Source of the DNA: Acidovorax sp. KKS102
Lineage (GTDB): Bacteria; Pseudomonadota; Gammaproteobacteria; Burkholderiales; Burkholderiaceae_C
Length of the DNA: 64,000 nt
Direction: 5' to 3'
NCBI RefSeq assembly: GCF_000302535.1
Contig: NC_018708.1
Coordinates: 3,844,001 to 3,908,000, forward strand
Below are positions 29,889 to 38,450 of the stretch, piece by piece. The position numbers and the translations under genes were made by a program. The notes beneath the pieces were generated by a model, which had not been told where the DNA came from, did not search any database, and was given only the letters and a program-made list of their open reading frames with translations. Within the stretch, counting starts at the first letter, position 1. Every line of letters starts with the position of its first letter.

Positions 29889-31377
29889 CGGGCGGCAGCG
29901 CCTCCCAGCGCCCGGCCACGTTCTTCAGCAGCGCGTTCACGGCCGTCAGGCGGCGGCTTTTTACGTCGATCAGGCTCCGCTGCGATGACAGCACGGTGGT
30001 CTGGGCCGCCAGCACGTTCAGGTAGCCCACGGTGCCCGCACGGTACTGGTTCTCCACCACGTCCAGCGCACGCTGGGCGGCGGCGGTGGCCTCGCGCTGC
30101 AGTTGCTCCTCCTGCGCCAGCGCGGCAGCGGCCGTGAGGTTGTCCTCCACCTCCTGCAGCGCGGTCAGCACCGTCTGGCGGTAGGCGGCTGTGACCTGCG
30201 CGTGGTTGGCACGGGCGGACTCCACCGCCGCACTGCGCGCACCGCCATCAAAAAGCGACACCGCCAGCGCCGGCCCCAGCGACCAGAACAGGTTGGGTGC
30301 ACTGAACAGATCCGCCAGCGGCGCCCCCCGGTATCCGCCCGCGGCCGACAGCGTGAGCGTGGGGAAATACGCCGCACGCGCCACGCCGATCTGCGCATTG
30401 GCCGCCGCCACGCGGCGTTCTGCAGCAGCAATGTCCGGACGGCGCTGCAGCAGGTCGGACGGCAGGGCCTGGGGCACATCGGCCGGTGCGGGCAGCGCAG
30501 CGGTGGGTTCCAGCGCAAAGGCGGCAGGCGCCTGCCCCAGCAGCGCGGCCAGCGCGTGCTCCAGCTGGCTGCGCGTGGTTTGGGCCTCCAGCAGTTGCAC
30601 CTGGGTGGACTTGTACTGCGCCTCGGCCTGGGCCACATCGGCGCTGGAGGCCACACCCGCCGCCTGGCGGTTGCGCGTCAGCTCCCAGCTACGGTCGTAG
30701 GCTTTGAGCGTCTCGCCCAGCAACGCCGCCTGTGCCTCGGCTGCACGCAGTGAAAAATACGTCTGCGCCACGGCCGCCTGCAGCGACAGGCGCGCAGCGG
30801 CCAGATCGTCGGCGCTGGCCTGGGCGCTGGCCTGGGCCGCACTCACCCCGGCGGAGACGCGCCCCCACAGGTCCAGCTCCCAGCTGGCGGTAAGGCCCAG
30901 CGAATGGCTGGTGCTGATGCGGGCGGTGCTGCTACCGTCGCCCTGGCTGGACAGCTGTGTGCCGCTGCGCGCACGGCTGCTGCTGGCATTAGCCCCCACG
31001 GTGGGCAAGGCCGCTGCGCCACTGCTGGTAACGGCCGCCTGGGCCGCGCGCAGGCGGGCGGCGCTTTGCGCCAGGGTGGGGCTGTTGGCCTCGGCCTGCT
31101 GCTGCAGGCGGTCCAGCACGGCGTCGCCGTACACGGTCCACCAGGTCTCGGGCGGAGCCGTGGAGGCCTGCGGCTGCGCGGGCTTCCAGATGCCCTGGGC
31201 CTGGGCGGCGGCCTGCTCTTTGTAGGCGGCCGGAATGTCCATGGCGGGCCGCTCGTACGGCGGCGTCTGCGCGCAGCCCGCCAGCCACAGGCCACTGGCC
31301 AGCAACGCAGGCATGGCAGCCCGCCTGACCTGCGCCGCAGGCCAGGTGACCTGGCGTGAAAAAGTGAAAGAGGTCAT
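29884..31377 (-). CDS. RND efflux outer-membrane factor lipoprotein (NodT/OprM family)
   Basis: TolC-like outer-membrane channel of an RND pump, 497 residues. The lipobox LWLAGC near residue 33 predicts acylation. The mature part has the family pattern WWTVYGDAVLDRLQQQAEANSP, internal repeat structure of long helices (LEHALAALLGQAPAAF, LLQRRPDIAAAERRVAAANAQIGVARAAYFPTL) and the closing helix ALDVVENQYRAGTVGYLNVL. The ATG at 31377 overlaps the mdtC stop (ATGA), which fixes the start and shows coupling. It completes the four-gene pump MdtA-MdtB-MdtC-channel. Confidence 0.95.
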   Translation of the reverse strand: MTSFTFSRQVTWPAAQVRRAAMPALLASGLWLAGCAQTPPYERPAMDIPAAYKEQAAAQAQGIWKPAQPQASTAPPETWWTVYGDAVLDRLQQQAEANSPTLAQSAARLRAAQAAVTSSGAAALPTVGANASSSRARSGTQLSSQGDGSSTARISTSHSLGLTASWELDLWGRVSAGVSAAQASAQASADDLAAARLSLQAAVAQTYFSLRAAEAQAALLGETLKAYDRSWELTRNRQAAGVASSADVAQAEAQYKSTQVQLLEAQTTRSQLEHALAALLGQAPAAFALEPTAALPAPADVPQALPSDLLQRRPDIAAAERRVAAANAQIGVARAAYFPTLTLSAAGGYRGAPLADLFSAPNLFWSLGPALAVSLFDGGARSAAVESARANHAQVTAAYRQTVLTALQEVEDNLTAAAALAQEEQLQREATAAAQRALDVVENQYRAGTVGYLNVLAAQTTVLSSQRSLIDVKSRRLTAVNALLKNVAGRWEALPPA

Positions 31378-34300
31378 CCGTCGTTTCCTTGCAATACCAC
31401 CGGGGCCGCAGGCGCGGCGCCCGCTGGCTTGCGTCGCCGCCCCACCGCGCGCAGCACGCGCGCACGCAGCCGGTCGAGCGCCACATACACCACCGGCGTC
31501 GTGTAGAGCGTGAGCCACTGGCTTACCAGCAGGCCGCCCACAATCGCAATGCCCAGCGGCTGGCGCAGCTCGGCACCATCGCCCCGCCCCAGGGCCAGTG
31601 GCAGGGCCCCAAAGATGGCGGCCACGGTGGTCATCAGAATGGGGCGCAGCCGCAGGTTGCATGCGCGGTAGATGGCCTGCGCTGCGGTGACGGGCGCCCG
31701 GCCCGGCTCGCCCTGCTGGCGTTGCCGCGTGAGGGCAAAGTCGATCATCATGATCGCGTTCTTCTTCACGATGCCGATCAGCAGGATCACGCCAATGAGT
31801 GCGATGAGCGAGAACTCCGTCTTGAACAGCATGAGTGCCAGCAACGCGCCCACGCCCGCAGACGGCAGCGTGGACAGGATGGTGATGGGATGCACCAGGC
31901 TCTCGTACAACATGCCCAGCACCAGATAGATGGTGATGATGGCCGCCAGGATCAGCAGCGGCTGGCCCGCCAGTGCATCCTGAAACGCCCCCGCCGTGCC
32001 GCTGAACGAACCGCGCACCGACACCGGCACGCCCAGCTCGGCCACCGCGTTGTTCACCGCCTCAGTAGCCTGCGACAGCGACACCCCCGGCGCCAGGCTG
32101 AAGCTGATGCTGCTGGCGGGTGTGCCCCGGTCGTGGTTGACTGATAGCGGCGTGTTGGTGGTGGTGATGCGCGCAAACGCCGTGAGCGGAATCTGCTGCC
32201 CCTGGCTGTTGACGAAGAAGAAGCCGCGCAGCGTCTCGGGGTTCTGCAGGTAGCGCGGCGCGGCCTCCATCACCACGCGGTACTGGTTGAGCGGGTTGTA
32301 GATCACGCCCACCTGGCGCTGGCCGAAGGCGTTGTTCAGCGTGGCGTCGATCTGTGCCATGGTCAGGCCCAGGCGCGTGACCGCATCGCGGTCGATGACC
32401 AGCGAGGTCTGCAGGCCAAAGTCCTGCACGTCACTGTTCACGTCTTCCAATTCGGGCAACTGGCTCAGCACCTGGCGGATGCGCGGCTCCCAGGTGCGCA
32501 GGTCGCCAATGTCGTCGGCCTGCAGGGTGTAGTCGAAGGATGCACCGCTCTGCCGCCCACCAATGCGGATGTCGCGCTGCGGCACCAGGAACAGGCGCGC
32601 GCCCGGCTCGTTCTTGAGCTGCTCGCGCAGCCGCGTTATCACGGTCTCCGAGCTCTCCTGCCCCGGTCCGCGCTTGAGGGTCATGAACATCTGCGCCGCA
32701 TTGCGCTGCCAGCCGCCCGTGAAGCCGGTCACATGCTCCACGGCCGGGTCGGCCTGCACGATGGACAGGAAACGCTGCAGCCGCTGCTCCATGGCCTGGT
32801 AGGACGTGGCCTGGTCGGCGCGGATGAAGCCCGAGATGCGCCCGGTGTCCTGCTCGGGCATGAAGCCCTTGTCGATGGCGGTGTAGAGGTACACGTTGAG
32901 CCCCACCACACACGCCAGCGCCAGCAAGGCCACAGGCTGGTGGCGCAGGCACCAGGCCAGGCTGCGGCGGTACAGGCGCATGCCCCGCACCTGGATACGG
33001 TCCACCCAGCGACCGATCCGATAGCTGAAGCGCCGCGCCGGGGCCGGGCTGTGGGGCTTGAGCAGCGCTGCACACATCATGGGCGTGGTGGTGAGCGACA
33101 CCACCATCGACACCAGGATGGCCGAGGACATGACGATGGCGAACTCGCGGAAAAACCGCCCCACGATGCCGCCCATGAACAAGATGGGCACGAACACCGC
33201 AATCAGCGAGATGCTCATCGACACCACGGTAAAGCCGATCTCGCGCGCGCCGTCCAGCGACGCCCGCAGCGCGGTCTTGCCACGCTCCATGTGGCGCATG
33301 ATGTTCTCCAGCACCACGATGGCATCGTCCACCACAAAGCCCGTGGCCACCGTGAGCGCCATCAGCGAGAGGTTGTCGAGCGTGTAACCCGCCAAATACA
33401 TCACACCAAACGTGCCGGCCAGCGACACCGGCACCGCCACGCTGGGGATGAGCGTGGCACGCCCGTTGCGCAAGAACAGGAACACCACCAGCACCACCAG
33501 CGCCACCGCAATCAGCAGCGCGCGCTCCACCTCTTTGACCGACGCACGCAGCGTGGGTGTGCGGTCGGACACCACCTCGATGTCGATAGCCGCCGGGATG
33601 GAGGCCTGCAGCGCGGGCAGCAGCGAGCGCACGCGCTCCACGGCTTCGAGGATGTTGGCGCCGGGCTGCTTGTAGACCTGCAGCAGCACCGCCGGCTTGC
33701 CGTTGGCCACACCGAAGTTGCGCACGTCCTGCACCGAGTCCACCACATCGGCCACGTCCTGCAGGCGCACGGCCTGCCCATTTTTCCAGCGCAGCACCAG
33801 CGGGGCGTAGTCGGCCGCCACACGGGCCTGGTCGTTGGTGGCCACCTGCCAGTAGTGGTCCTCGCGCTCCACCGCGCCCAGCGGGCGGTTGGCGTTGGTG
33901 CTGACGATGGCACTGCGCACCTGTTCCAGCGAGATGCCGTTGGACGCGAGCCGCACCGGGTCCAGCTCCACGCGCACGGCGGGCAGCGCGCCCCCGCTCA
34001 CCGTGGCCTGGCCCACGCCCTCGACCTGCGAGAGCTTTTGCGCCAGCACGGTAGAGGCTGCGTCGTACATCTGCCCGCGCGTGAGCAGGTCCGACGTGAG
34101 CGCCAGGATCATGATGGGCGAGTCGGCCGGGTTGACCTTGCGGTAGGTCGGGTTGCTGGGCATGCCCGTGGGCAGCAGCGTGCGTGCGGCGTTGATGGCG
34201 GCCTGCACATCGCGCGCGGCACTGTCCACGTTGCGGTCCAGGTCGAACTGCAGCGTGATGGAAGTGCTGCCCAGGATGGAGCGCGAGGTGATCTCGGTGA

Positions 34301-34529
34301 CGCCCGCAATGGCGCCCAGCGACCGTTCCAGGGGCGTGGCGACGGTGGCGGCCATGGTGTCGGGGCTGGCGCCGGGCAGGCTGGCGCTGACCGAGATGGT
34401 GGGGTAGTCCACCTGCGGCAGCGGGGCCACGGGCAGCAGGAAGAACGACACGGCACCCGCCAGGGCCAGGCCCAGGGTGAGGAGCATGGTGCCGATGGGG
34501 CGGTGGATGAAGGGGGTGGAGAGGCTCAT
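31374..34529 (-). CDS. mdtC: RND efflux permease, MdtC-like
   Basis: Inner-membrane proton-driven drug transporter, 1051 residues, slightly longer than E. coli MdtC. Twelve helices and two large periplasmic loops. The start FIHRPIGTMLLTLGLALAGAVSFFLLPVAPLPQVDYPTI is typical of MdtC, and [14 protein letters not shown] in TM4 keeps the two proton-relay Asp residues. A second half repeats the fold ([15 protein letters not shown]). In E. coli MdtB and MdtC form one heterotrimer. GGAGAG lies about eight bases upstream of the ATG. Unusually, the mdtB-mdtC junction is 807 bp and holds a hairpin-rich element instead of the expected overlap. Confidence 0.95.
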   Translation of the reverse strand: MSLSTPFIHRPIGTMLLTLGLALAGAVSFFLLPVAPLPQVDYPTISVSASLPGASPDTMAATVATPLERSLGAIAGVTEITSRSILGSTSITLQFDLDRNVDSAARDVQAAINAARTLLPTGMPSNPTYRKVNPADSPIMILALTSDLLTRGQMYDAASTVLAQKLSQVEGVGQATVSGGALPAVRVELDPVRLASNGISLEQVRSAIVSTNANRPLGAVEREDHYWQVATNDQARVAADYAPLVLRWKNGQAVRLQDVADVVDSVQDVRNFGVANGKPAVLLQVYKQPGANILEAVERVRSLLPALQASIPAAIDIEVVSDRTPTLRASVKEVERALLIAVALVVLVVFLFLRNGRATLIPSVAVPVSLAGTFGVMYLAGYTLDNLSLMALTVATGFVVDDAIVVLENIMRHMERGKTALRASLDGAREIGFTVVSMSISLIAVFVPILFMGGIVGRFFREFAIVMSSAILVSMVVSLTTTPMMCAALLKPHSPAPARRFSYRIGRWVDRIQVRGMRLYRRSLAWCLRHQPVALLALACVVGLNVYLYTAIDKGFMPEQDTGRISGFIRADQATSYQAMEQRLQRFLSIVQADPAVEHVTGFTGGWQRNAAQMFMTLKRGPGQESSETVITRLREQLKNEPGARLFLVPQRDIRIGGRQSGASFDYTLQADDIGDLRTWEPRIRQVLSQLPELEDVNSDVQDFGLQTSLVIDRDAVTRLGLTMAQIDATLNNAFGQRQVGVIYNPLNQYRVVMEAAPRYLQNPETLRGFFFVNSQGQQIPLTAFARITTTNTPLSVNHDRGTPASSISFSLAPGVSLSQATEAVNNAVAELGVPVSVRGSFSGTAGAFQDALAGQPLLILAAIITIYLVLGMLYESLVHPITILSTLPSAGVGALLALMLFKTEFSLIALIGVILLIGIVKKNAIMMIDFALTRQRQQGEPGRAPVTAAQAIYRACNLRLRPILMTTVAAIFGALPLALGRGDGAELRQPLGIAIVGGLLVSQWLTLYTTPVVYVALDRLRARVLRAVGRRRKPAGAAPAAPVVLQGNDG

Positions 34530-34570
34530 GGGTGAGCTCTCCGGGTGGTTTTTGGGTGTTTTTGGCTGGA

Positions 34571-34611
34571 TGCGCTAGTGGGATAAGCGCTGGTAGCTAT
34601 TGTTTTTGTAG
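34571..34611 (+). repeat. Dispersed AGCGCTAGT/AGCTAT-type repeat upstream of mdtC
   Basis: TGCGCTAGTGGGATAAGCGC continues with TGGTAGCTATTGTTTTTGTAG. It is the best reference copy of the repeat family seen in this window. It lies 40-80 bases before the mdtC start, between the long hairpin-rich element and the gene. Confidence 0.65.
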
Positions 34612-34660
34612 TGTTTTCTTTGGGGCGCTGATTGGGCCGCATGCCTTTGTTGAGGGCGGA

Positions 34661-35297
34661 GGCCGGGAGTCGCCCGGCATGCGAGTCCCTTTCTTTCGCG
34701 TCGCCGAAAGAAAGGAACCAAAGAAAGGGCGACCCCACTGTCTGCGTCCCCGCCGCTGCGCGCCGGGGCAACCTGCGGTGCTCGGGTTTGGCGGGGTCTC
34801 GCTCGAACTCGCTTCGCTCAGACAATCGCGAGCCCTGATCCGCCAAACCCTGCGCTCCTCGGCGCATCCAGAGGGGCAAGGGGAACCAAACATCCACACG
34901 AGCCTTTGCTTCGCTGCGCTGCGCTCGGCCCCAACTCGCGGGCGCAAGCGCCACGCGCTGCGCAGGCCAAGCCGAGCGCAGCGATGGCCCGAATGGATGT
35001 CCGGCTGTTTGGATGTTTGGCTCCCCGCCCCTGCTGGCTGCGCCTGCGTCGGGGCGGTTGCGGGGTGAGCATGGGCGTCGAAGCGCCCATGCCTCGTGAA
35101 CTGACTCGCCGTGGCTGTCCGAGCGGCGCGCGCAGCGCAAAGCGAGTTCCACGGCGCACCCCGCAACCGCCCCGATGCAGGTTTGCCCCTTCGCATCGCG
35201 AAGGGGTCGCAGACTGGGGGTCGCCTTTCTTTTGGGTACTTTTCTTTGGCGAAGCAAAGAAAAGTACCTCGCCCGCCGGGGCGACAACCCGGCTCCC
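34661..35297. repeat. Hairpin-rich non-coding element with long terminal inverted repeats between mdtB and mdtC
   Basis: An 807-bp gap (34530-35336) inside the pump operon carries no credible gene. The ends, about 34661-34736 and 35217-35297, are imperfect inverted repeats of each other, each with its own palindrome: CCTTTCTTTCG/CGAAAGAAAGG (34688-34715) and GTACTTTTCTTTG/CAAAGAAAAGTAC (35236-35267). Between them are perfect or near-perfect pairs: 34784-34794 with 34840-34850; 34880-34895 with 35011-35026 (one mismatch), enclosing 34917-34929 with 34971-34983; 35051-35067 with 35157-35173 (17 of 17), enclosing 35069-35077/35084-35092 and 35107-35114/35149-35156; and 35186-35194/35198-35206. 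The layout suggests a dispersed intergenic element or structured RNA. Short open frames in it look like chance products of GC-rich sequence. Confidence 0.8.
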
Positions 35298-35336
35298 GCG
35301 CTCAAACCAAGCACGCTATTCATAAGGGCCAACGCT

Positions 35337-38300
35337 TCAGGCATTCACGACCTCGGAACGCCCACGCCACCGCTGCGCCCACCCCTCAAACGTGAGGTAA
35401 ATCACCGGCGTCGTGAACAGCGTGAGCAACTGACTCAGGATCAGCCCCCCCACCATCGTCACCCCCAGCGGATGCCGAAGCTCACTGCCCACACCCGTCC
35501 CCAACATCATCGGCAACGCCCCCAGCAACGCCGCCAACGTCGTCATCAAAATCGGCCGAAACCGCAACAGACATGCCTGGTAAATCGCATCACGCGCACT
35601 CAGACCCTCGTCCCGCTGCGCCTCCAGCGCAAAGTCGATCATCATGATCGCGTTCTTCTTCACGATGCCGATCAGCAGCACGATGCCGATGATGGCAATG
35701 ATGTCCAGGTCCAGCCGCGCCGCCATCAGCGCCAGCAACGCGCCCACCCCAGCCGAGGGCAGCGTGGACAAGATCGTGACCGGGTGAACCGTGCTCTCGT
35801 ACAGCACGCCCAGCACGATGTACATGGTGACCACCGCCGCCAGAATCAGCAGCAGCGTGTTCGACAACGACGCCTGGAACGCCAGCGCCGCACCCTGGAA
35901 ACTCGTCTCCACCGACAGCGGCAATTGCCCTTCGGCCTGCACGGCCGCCTTCTCGCGCTCGATGGCGGCCACGGCATTGCCCAGCGATACCCCCTGCGCG
36001 GTGTTGAACGAAATGGTGGCAGCCGGCAACTGGCCCACGTGGTTGACCACCAGGGGCATGTTGCGCTCCTCGATGCGCGCCACCGACGACAGCGGTACCG
36101 GAGCCCCCACGCTGGAGGGCACATAAATGCTCTGCAGCGCCTCGGGCCCCACCTTGAACTGCGGCGCCACCTCCAACACCACGCGGTACTGGTTGGACTG
36201 TGTGAAGATGGTCGAGATCAGCCGCTGGCCAAAGGCGTTGTACAGCGCCGCATCAATACCCGCCACCGTCACGCCCAGGCGGCTGGCCTGGGCGCGGTCG
36301 ATTTGCACATAAGCCTGGCGGCCTTGGTCCTGCAGGTCGCTGGCCACATCCGTCAGCTCGGGCAAGGCGCGCAGACGGCGCAGCAGCTCGGTGGTGCTGG
36401 TGGTCAGCTGCTGCATGTCGGGCGACGACAGCAGCCACTGGTATTGCGTGCGTGCCACCCGGTCTTCAATGGTCAGGTCCTGCACGGGCTGGATGAACAG
36501 GCGGATGCCCGGCAGGTTCTGCACACGCTCGGCCAGGCGCTGCTGCACCACACCGGCCTTGTCGCGCTGTGCATGCGGCTGCAGGTCGATCAGCAGGCGG
36601 CCGGTGTTGAGCGTGGTGTTGGCGCCGTCGACGCCGATGAACGACGAGACGCTGCGCACGGCGGGGTCTTGCAGCAGCCGTTCGGCCACGGCCTGCTGGC
36701 GCTCGGCCATGCCGGCAAACGAGATCGACTGGTCGGCCTCGGTGGTGGCCTGCAGCGTGCCGGTGTCCTGCACCGGAAAGAAGCCCTTGGGGATGAACAG
36801 GTACAGCACCACGGTGAGCGCCAGCGTGGCCGCAAACACCAGCCAGGTGGTGCCCCGGTGGTTCAGCACCCAGCCCAGCATGCGGCCATAGCCGGCGATG
36901 GTGCGGTCAAAGAAATGGCCCGTAGCGCGGTACAGGCGGCCGTGGCTCTCCTCGGGCGTATGGCGCAGCAGGCGCGCGCACAGCATGGGCGTGAGCGTGA
37001 GCGACACCACGGCCGAGATCAAAATGGACACGGCCAGCGTGATGGCGAACTCATGGAACAGCCGCCCCACCACATCGCCCATGAACAGCAACGGGATCAG
37101 CACGGCGATCAGCGAGATGGTGAGCGAGATGATGGTGAAGCCGATCTGTTGCGAGCCCTTGAGCGCGGCCGCGAGCGGTGCCTCGCCCTCTTCCACATAG
37201 CGGGCAATGTTTTCGATCATCACGATGGCATCGTCCACCACAAAACCGGTGGAGATGGTCAGCGCCATCAGCGTGAGGTTGTTGATCGAAAACCCCGCCA
37301 GGTACATCACGCCGCAGGTGCCGATGAGCGATAGCGGCACGGCCACGCTCGGGATCAGCGTGGCCGAGGGGCTGCGCAGGAAGACAAAGATCACCGTCAC
37401 CACCAGCAGCACGGCCAGGCCCAGCTCCACCTGCATGTCGTGCACCGAGGCGCGCACCGTGACCGTGCGGTCGGTCAGCACCTGCACATCCAGCGACGCT
37501 GGCAAGGTGCTTTGCAGTTGCGGCAGCAGGGCCTTGATGCGGTCCACCGTGTCGATCACGTTGGCACCGGGCTGGCGGCGGATGTTGAGGATCACGCCGG
37601 GCTTGGCGCCCGTGTCAGCCGTGCCCGCCCAGGCGGCGAGCCGGGTGTTCTCGGCATCGTCCACCGTTTCGGCCACGTCCTTCAGGCGCACGGGGGCGCC
37701 ATTCTTGAAGGCGATGATGAGGTCGCGGTATTCAGCCGCCGACTGCAGCTGGTCGTTGGCATCAATGGTGGACGCACGGGCCGGGCCGTCAAAGCCGCCC
37801 TTGGCCTGCTTGACGTTGGCCGCGGCGATGGAGGTGCGCACGTCTTCCAGCGTGAGGCCCAGCTGCGCCAGCGCCGTGGGGTTGGCCTGGATGCGCACGG
37901 CCGGGCGGCGCCCGCCCGCAATCGCCACCAGACCCACGCCCTGCACCTGCGACAGCTTGGGTGCCAGGCGGTTTTCCACCAGGTCGTTCACGCGGATCAC
38001 GGGCAGCGAGGGCGAGGTGATGGCCAGCGTGAGGATGGGCGCATCGGCCGGGTTGACCTTGCTGTACAGCGGCGGCATGGGCAGGTCGCTGGGCAGCAGG
38101 TTGCTGCCTGCGTTGATGGCCGCCTGTACCTGTTGCTCGGCTACATCCAGCGCCATGTCGAGCGCAAAACGCAGTGTGATCACCGAAGCCCCGCCCGAGC
38201 TGGTGGACGACATTTGCGACAGCCCCGGCATCTGGCCGAACTGCCGCTCCAGCGGGGCCGTGACGTTGGAGGTCATCACGTCCGGGCTCGCGCCCGGGTA

Positions 38301-38450
38301 CAGCGTGGTGACCTGGATGGTGGGGTAGTCCACCTCGGGCAGGGCCGAGGTGGGCAGCAGCCGGTAGGCCATCAGCCCTGCGATCAGGATCGCCACCATC
38401 AGCAGCGCGGTGGCGATGGGGCGCAGGATGAAGAGGCGCGACAGGTTCAT
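35337..38450 (-). CDS. mdtB: RND efflux permease, MdtB-like
   Basis: Inner-membrane RND transporter, 1037 residues. Its N-terminus ([20 protein letters not shown], then [20 protein letters not shown]) and blocks such as [18 protein letters not shown] and [20 protein letters not shown] follow E. coli MdtB closely. TM4 has [14 protein letters not shown] with both Asp residues; the second half has [15 protein letters not shown] and [20 protein letters not shown]. It works with MdtC as a heterotrimer and with MdtA and an outer-membrane channel. The ATG at 38450 is 54 nt downstream of mdtA. The stop lies about 40 bases from the right end of the hairpin-rich element. Confidence 0.96.

Follow-up and report, generated by a model that had tools for sequence, protein, structure and literature searches.

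A branched, quasi-palindromic repeat oriented against the replication fork lies in the mdtB-mdtC gap of Acidovorax sp. KKS102

The gap between mdtB and mdtC in a 64,000-nucleotide stretch of Acidovorax sp. KKS102 DNA (NC_018708.1, positions 3,844,001 to 3,908,000; hereafter the window, whose numbering is used throughout) contains one copy of a repeat of about 640 bases. This repeat is dispersed within and between genomes, can fold into a branched structure, keeps its base pairing through compensatory changes that favour neither strand, is enriched between convergent genes, faces against the replication fork in most copies, and has an interior that is homogenised within genomes. The best explanation is a non-autonomous chromosomal repeat acting at the DNA level, that is, a branched quasi-palindrome which occupies sites at gene ends, would be placed with fork polarity as folded single-stranded DNA, and is, with good support, homogenised by gene conversion; we give this reading an even chance of being right.

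The sharp core of the window copy lies at about 34651-35306 (+ strand in the orientation defined here, which runs against the replication fork in this copy), and core size across copies is 640–700 bp. The earlier note had placed the element at 34661-35297, and it stands as a unit, with a slightly wider core and further inverted repeat shells outside it. Twelve inverted pairs were found in 34400-35500, including 28 nt at 93%, 14 nt at 100% and 13 nt at 100%, in keeping with the nine or more described previously, while the terminal inverted repeats, put at about 75 bp, do exist but measure 64 nt at 73% identity. A single large folded structure had also been proposed, and the fold of 34661-35297 was better than all 20 dinucleotide shuffles as RNA on the + strand (z -18.5), as DNA on the + strand (z -15.9) and as RNA on the - strand (z -15.1). 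The GC skew of the element is about zero.

The predicted fold is a single tree with a terminal stem, side hairpins on both arms, an axial stem, two internal branched modules and a variable centre (all features on the + strand). The left terminal arm (34661-34685) is partnered by 35268-35294 and is followed by the left side hairpin at 34688-34715 (CCTTTCTTTCG..CGAAAGAAAGG), where 98.4–99.5% of cells are paired in 62 aligned copies and seven pairs show double changes. The left arm of the long axial stem (34718-34751) has its partner at 35203-35235, and the axial stem arm GGGGCAACCTGC (34765-34776) at 35177-35189. Further in are the left internal hairpin module (34784-34850), versions of which differ strongly between copies, the central stem with its apical hairpins (34861-35044), which is variable and gap-rich in alignment, and the right internal branched module (35048-35176), where the stem GTCGGGGCGGTTGCGGGGTG/CACCCCGCAACCGCCCCGAT surrounds hairpins at 35069-35092 and 35107-35156. 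The marker that was used to find and orient copies, AGTTCCACGGCGCACCCCGCAACCG, sits inside this last module. The right end module (35203-35268) consists of CGCCTTTCTTTTGG plus the hairpin GTACTTTTCTTTG..CAAAGAAAAGTAC and is the portion common to other Proteobacteria; the right side hairpin of the tree is 35236-35267. Each end of the element also matches the reverse complement of the other end, so the whole is a quasi-palindrome made of palindromes. Outside the core, the left arm of outer shell 1 (34572-34613) carries the REP-like hairpin GCGCTAGTGGGATAAGCGCT and then GGTAGCTATTGTTTTTGTAGTG, with no right-hand partner seen in the window copy.

Both flanking genes are on the - strand. The gene for MdtB (35337-38450), whose stop adjoins the element, matches the MdtB model, and mdtC (31374-34529), downstream of the element, matches the MdtC model below its curated cut-off (1506 of 1774 bits). 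The gap between them is 807 bp, compared with 0, 27, 27 and 27 bp in four close relatives where the junction is unoccupied, bearing out the suspicion that it is unusually wide. In a survey of this junction, of the kind proposed in the earlier note, 28 of 30 loci were readable: 14 loci have gaps of 807–982 bp, four have remnants of 171–478 bp (judged by eye), four are the close relatives with 0–27 bp, and six, which lack a gap, come from a more distant mdt cluster. At occupied junctions the element is found in either orientation. Four long ORFs spanning the gap gave no Pfam match above cut-off; a protein-coding gap was rejected on this ground, and the non-coding call was upheld. Most simply, the element at mdtB-mdtC is a tolerated passenger within the operon.

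The suggestion that the region is a dispersed intergenic element, with further copies to be sought in the genome, proved correct: the KKS102 genome holds seven full copies, that of the window included, and one truncated copy, and 88 copies were collected from the genus. The truncated copy (L015, G000:C1:4872971-4873229) matches the left 261 bp, and its end is in addition a 97% match to the right end of the window copy in reverse complement. In a survey of 99 genomes, KKS102 included, five candidates were scored per genome, making the counts lower bounds, and element matches were present in at least 59 of the 99 and in at least 43 of 46 relatives of the same genus. Copies were then defined in 14 near-complete genomes of the genus by an oriented 25-base marker with up to 3 mismatches. 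Marker-bearing copies occur in 13 of the 14, at 3–10 per positive genome, and none was found in the remaining one (G002) with this marker and tolerance. The resulting set of 88 copies, each with about 5 kb of sequence, excludes six secondary marker matches inside copies; many of its members are orthologous, and seven match the window copy in the right half alone, from query position 312 onward.

An order-wide search of 399 genomes with the internal module 34994-35200, two candidates being scored in each, gave at least 21 matches, for the most part short ones close to the E limit. Full-length matches were found in Acidovorax delafieldii (84%), Acidovorax sp. 210-6 (73%) and a Giesbergeria MAG (72%). 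Most other loci share the right end module alone (about query positions 562-640), for example in Methylomonas, Xanthomonas, Aggregatibacter, Burkholderia and Desulfobacterales among the at least 120 stretches listed, and the hairpin end of about 50 bp is present across Proteobacteria. An inverted partner arm lies within 1.5 kb of 24 of the 124 end-module hairpins in other taxa; in Burkholderia seminalis the inverted arms are 316 bp long at 95%, and the 49 kb read of a Paraburkholderia megaplasmid contains a single pair of ends, inverted and separated by about 0.5 kb. The end module matches 22 of 72,556 plasmid records, several of which are replicons of 1–5 Mb, and is absent from 20,395 E. coli records, while none of 50,697 phage records matched. 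NZ_CP012748.1 and other Paraburkholderia megaplasmids have from 38 to at least 40 end-module matches per record, three of the records reaching at least 40, and from these sequence matches a related element looks far more abundant there.

The gene calls around the copies come from a simple codon model whose training set was just mdtB and mdtC, so single calls may err; 48 of the 88 copies were placed between convergent genes, 39 between genes in the same direction and one between divergent genes. When the copies were sorted by the proteins that their flanks share, 23 groups resulted, and splitting one by hand yielded 24 sites (13 convergent, 10 codirectional and 1 divergent). The background was taken from 317 neighbouring gene pairs in 400 kb of the KKS102 genome, 42 of them convergent and 45 divergent. 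Convergent sites are strongly enriched (13/24 vs 42/317, p 8e-6), and the depletion of divergent sites is not significant (1/24 vs 45/317, p 0.22). Fifteen of the 23 site groups occur in two or more genomes, one of them in 8 of 13, and eight in a single genome. Position along the replichore is not significantly non-uniform (KS p 0.06) and is suggestive at most.

Two kinds of unit make up the outer shells. The REP-like unit, formed by the hairpin GCGCTAGTGGGATAAGCGCT plus GTAGCTATTG..TTTTGTAG and ending in GTAGCTATTGATTTTGTAG, lies near gene ends and is found in 6 of the 317 background gaps; it is present on at least one side of 65 of the 88 copies and on both sides of 21, and in no case in the other orientation. 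The second unit, CCGTTCGGGCTGAGCTTGTCGAAGCC, is present on at least one side of 53 of the 88 copies and in the other orientation in two. Tandem runs of CCGTTCGGGCTGAGCTTGTCGAAGCC with a period of about 43 bp lie between the element and the adjacent gene in the left flank of copy L049, and such runs were also seen, by eye, at L046 and L051.

Orientation was related to replication by marking the origin with dnaA and assuming the terminus to lie opposite it, which allowed a replichore to be assigned for 85 copies (three copies of the draft genome G041 were left out). Seventy-six of these face against the fork and nine run with it (75:10 with rounded genome sizes). By site majority, 22 of the 24 sites are oriented against the fork (p 3.6e-5), including all 13 convergent sites, and drawing one random copy per site gave a mean of 21.2 of 24 (p 0.0015 at the 5th percentile). 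Copies between convergent genes are divided 44 to 3, and for these gene direction cannot simply set the orientation of the element; a loophole is that the leading-strand gene of the pair may be the more transcribed one. At five of the 24 sites, mdtB-mdtC included, the flanking genes are the same but some copies face the other way, so inversion in place can occur; polarity can thus be lost at a site, and could instead be selected. As a yardstick, Y1_Tnp (IS200-like) genes of one identical score in G041 share a strand in all 13 cases on contig C1, in all 13 on C2, in 4 of 5 on C3 and in 1 of 2 on C4. The G041 contigs C1, C2 and C3 carry 34 Y1_Tnp (IS200-like) genes with one identical score.

Base pairing was followed in an alignment of 62 of the 88 copies, the 26 left out by hand being mostly partial, split or lower matches. 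In all, 89.3% of cells are paired, a count biased towards the structure because the structure was derived from one of the sequences. Double-change cells number 575, compared with 218 in shuffled data and at most 162 when the partner was slid, and this covariation, named as a check in the earlier note, means that pairs are kept through compensatory changes. Further pair types show no excess (166 vs 166.8 in shuffles), and several side hairpins have 98–100% of cells paired and more than one complementary version. RNA is expected to tolerate G-U on its own strand. On 167 of the 177 pairs shared by the + and - strand folds, those with Watson-Crick as their commonest state, departures to G-T (191 cells) are as common as those to A-C (193), beside 573 others, and neither strand therefore looks like RNA; we know of no calibration for this count. 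An earlier count over all 88 rows, on 49 pairs shared by both strands, gave G-T 29 and A-C 23, and there each fold favoured its own strand because G-U was allowed. The symmetry speaks for DNA, for transcription of both strands, or for hairpin-templated repair in which one arm is rewritten to match its partner.

At gathering thresholds no Rfam family matched in the window, and the one match of a permissive scan, to a microRNA model, scored 27.5 bits where the cut-off is 75; an RNA gene was rejected on these scans together with the wobble count, which lacks a strand preference. No sigma-70-like promoter was found in 34400-35500 and terminator-like sites were near chance (2 found, 1.4 expected), and a terminator or promoter role was likewise set aside.

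The interiors of the copies have a different history from their surroundings. Of the 88 interiors, 50 have their nearest relative within their own genome, compared with a mean of 6.4 and a maximum of 17 in 2000 shuffles, and 10 have it in a copy from the same site (shuffles: mean 4.3, maximum 15). Of the flanks 60–160 bp outside the core, 56 of 88 are best matched by a copy from the same site and 9 by one from the same genome, counts that carry no shuffled control. Tree distances assign 44 interiors to the same genome, 8 to the same site and 36 to neither, and the seven KKS102 copies have a mosaic make-up, some patches being identical and others strongly different. This is concerted evolution of copies at fixed sites, for which gene conversion is the simplest and a well-supported cause; repeated re-insertion into those sites may be an alternative.

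Elements of the IS200/IS605 type insert with strand polarity into the lagging-strand template, their hairpins being read in single-stranded DNA. In the preferred reading of a DNA-level repeat, one strand would similarly fold as single-stranded DNA on the lagging-strand template, and a hairpin-reading enzyme would take the folded strand as its substrate, in the manner of IS200/IS605- or REP-type systems. Folding of the substrate on one template would then place copies with fixed polarity, a step that we infer by analogy with these systems. After placement, ectopic gene conversion would keep the copies alike, and perhaps hairpin-templated repair would also keep the arms complementary.

The earlier note had listed a non-autonomous mobile element among its options, and this is retained as the preferred class, with neither a partner enzyme nor a clean target duplication found. 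None of 30 Y1_Tnp loci of the genus, fetched from among the matches listed (many G041 copies being represented by one), has element ends; one has a weak shell-1-like REP, and three loose hairpin matches fall in unrelated sequence. A RAYT partner was rejected, no rayt gene lying between two inverted element copies among these 30 loci. For an autonomous version, 11 of the 24 places with an inverted partner were opened and the ORFs inside some were scanned; seven ORFs inside inverted-repeat elements of other taxa were hisC or had no family above cut-off. In another genome (L270, 1695-2765), hisC is enclosed by a pair of inverted arms bearing the hairpin end module. Neither a clean empty site nor a target duplication was seen, shells being present on both sides.

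The main rival is a chromosomal site with a polar job, either at the replication fork or in organising the chromosome, at which selection keeps both orientation and sites. It is possible, though unlikely. It would account for the 22:2 orientation over 24 sites, for the 15 of 23 site groups found in two or more genomes (one in 8 of 13), for interiors that are kept alike, and for matches in 0 of 50,697 phage and only 22 of 72,556 plasmid records, several of these replicons of 1–5 Mb. However, rarity on plasmids may be sampling, and the end module is also absent from the 20,395 E. coli records. Such a job also sits poorly with just 3–10 copies per genome and none found in G002, with eight of 23 groups in a single genome, with the shortened remnants that persist at mdtB-mdtC, with the tolerance of reversed copies, and with a replichore position that is not significantly non-uniform (KS p 0.06). 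A proposal on a wider scale, a Proteobacteria-wide superfamily with a conserved hairpin end of about 50 bp that acts as folded DNA at the fork and whose polarity is kept by selection, which would make it a hitherto unrecognised replication-oriented chromosome element and not a relic of mobility, is doubtful.

A two-way transcript-end structure (terminator or mRNA stabiliser) at gene 3′ ends, with the tree formed in RNA, has a small chance of being correct. The 13 convergent sites out of 24 and the strong RNA folding of both strands agree with it, and two-sided transcription could mask a strand preference, but G-T and A-C departures are equal on shared pairs, terminator-like sites are near chance (2 vs 1.4 expected), the depletion of divergent sites is not significant (1/24 vs 45/317, p 0.22), and the element is present within the mdtBC operon. 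Fork polarity at convergent sites would also go unexplained unless the leading-strand gene is the more transcribed. MITEs such as Correia/NEMIS are non-coding dispersed repeats with inverted ends. The terminal inverted repeats (64 nt, 73%) and the dispersed copies lacking a coding family would suit a MITE of a DDE transposase, moved by cut-and-paste as double-stranded DNA, yet no target duplication was seen, a non-exhaustive search brought up no autonomous partner, such an element has no need of a conserved branched interior, and neither fork polarity nor concerted evolution at fixed sites would be expected of it, leaving it improbable. A structured non-coding RNA gene, or the cis RNA tuning MdtC against MdtB offered by the earlier note, is hardly credible: extreme folding and compensatory changes would fit, but there is no Rfam match at gathering thresholds (27.5 bits vs 75 for the permissive microRNA-model match) and no sigma-70-like promoter in 34400-35500, wobble at paired positions shows no RNA-strand preference, and the element occupies 24 sites, 23 of them elsewhere, and lies in both orientations at mdtB-mdtC, so that a cis RNA for MdtC is not supported.

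The DNA-level repeat favoured here offers about 24 mapped sites that combine fork polarity, in-place reversal and concerted evolution, which makes it possible to distinguish insertion bias from selection by experiment. Compensatory change can arise without evidence for RNA, which is a warning for structure-based RNA discovery, and the count of G-T versus A-C departures may tell DNA-level pairing from RNA. The common hairpin end connects repeats of many Proteobacteria.

The kind of element, a dispersed palindromic chromosomal repeat, is already known. In the open-access literature searched (subscription papers were outside its scope), no earlier description that could be tied to the element was found, and no common name was met for the repeats sharing its hairpin end. 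As described by Nunvar et al. (2010, PMC2817692), REP/BIME are extragenic palindromes in inverted arrangement, associated with an IS200/IS605-related RAYT enzyme and usually numbering more than 100 copies per genome. The element resembles them in its inverted palindromes and in keeping complementary changes, and DNA-binding roles are proposed there for REP; it differs in its branched core of 640–700 bp and in its 3–10 copies per genome, against usually more than 100 for REP. Unlike RAYT-associated REP, no RAYT flanked by the element was found among the 30 Y1_Tnp loci, and it is shell 1, outside the core, that is REP-like. The Beta-proteobacterial repeat element (BRE; Hot et al. 2011, PMC3110155) is a chromosomal repeat of Bordetella and Comamonadaceae that, like the present element, is GC-rich and usually intergenic. 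At about 90 bp and often in tandem (VNTR), BRE is set apart by that description from an element of 640–700 bp, and may equal one of its modules or shells. Correia/NEMIS MITEs are also named in that paper. Compared with these, the element is larger and has nested palindromes, fork polarity and no known parent. IS200/IS605 is a possible working model, the element itself having no transposase and no evidence of membership here. As far as could be tested, its size, branched build, fork polarity with in-place reversal and site-fixed homogenisation separate the element from the REP and MITE families.
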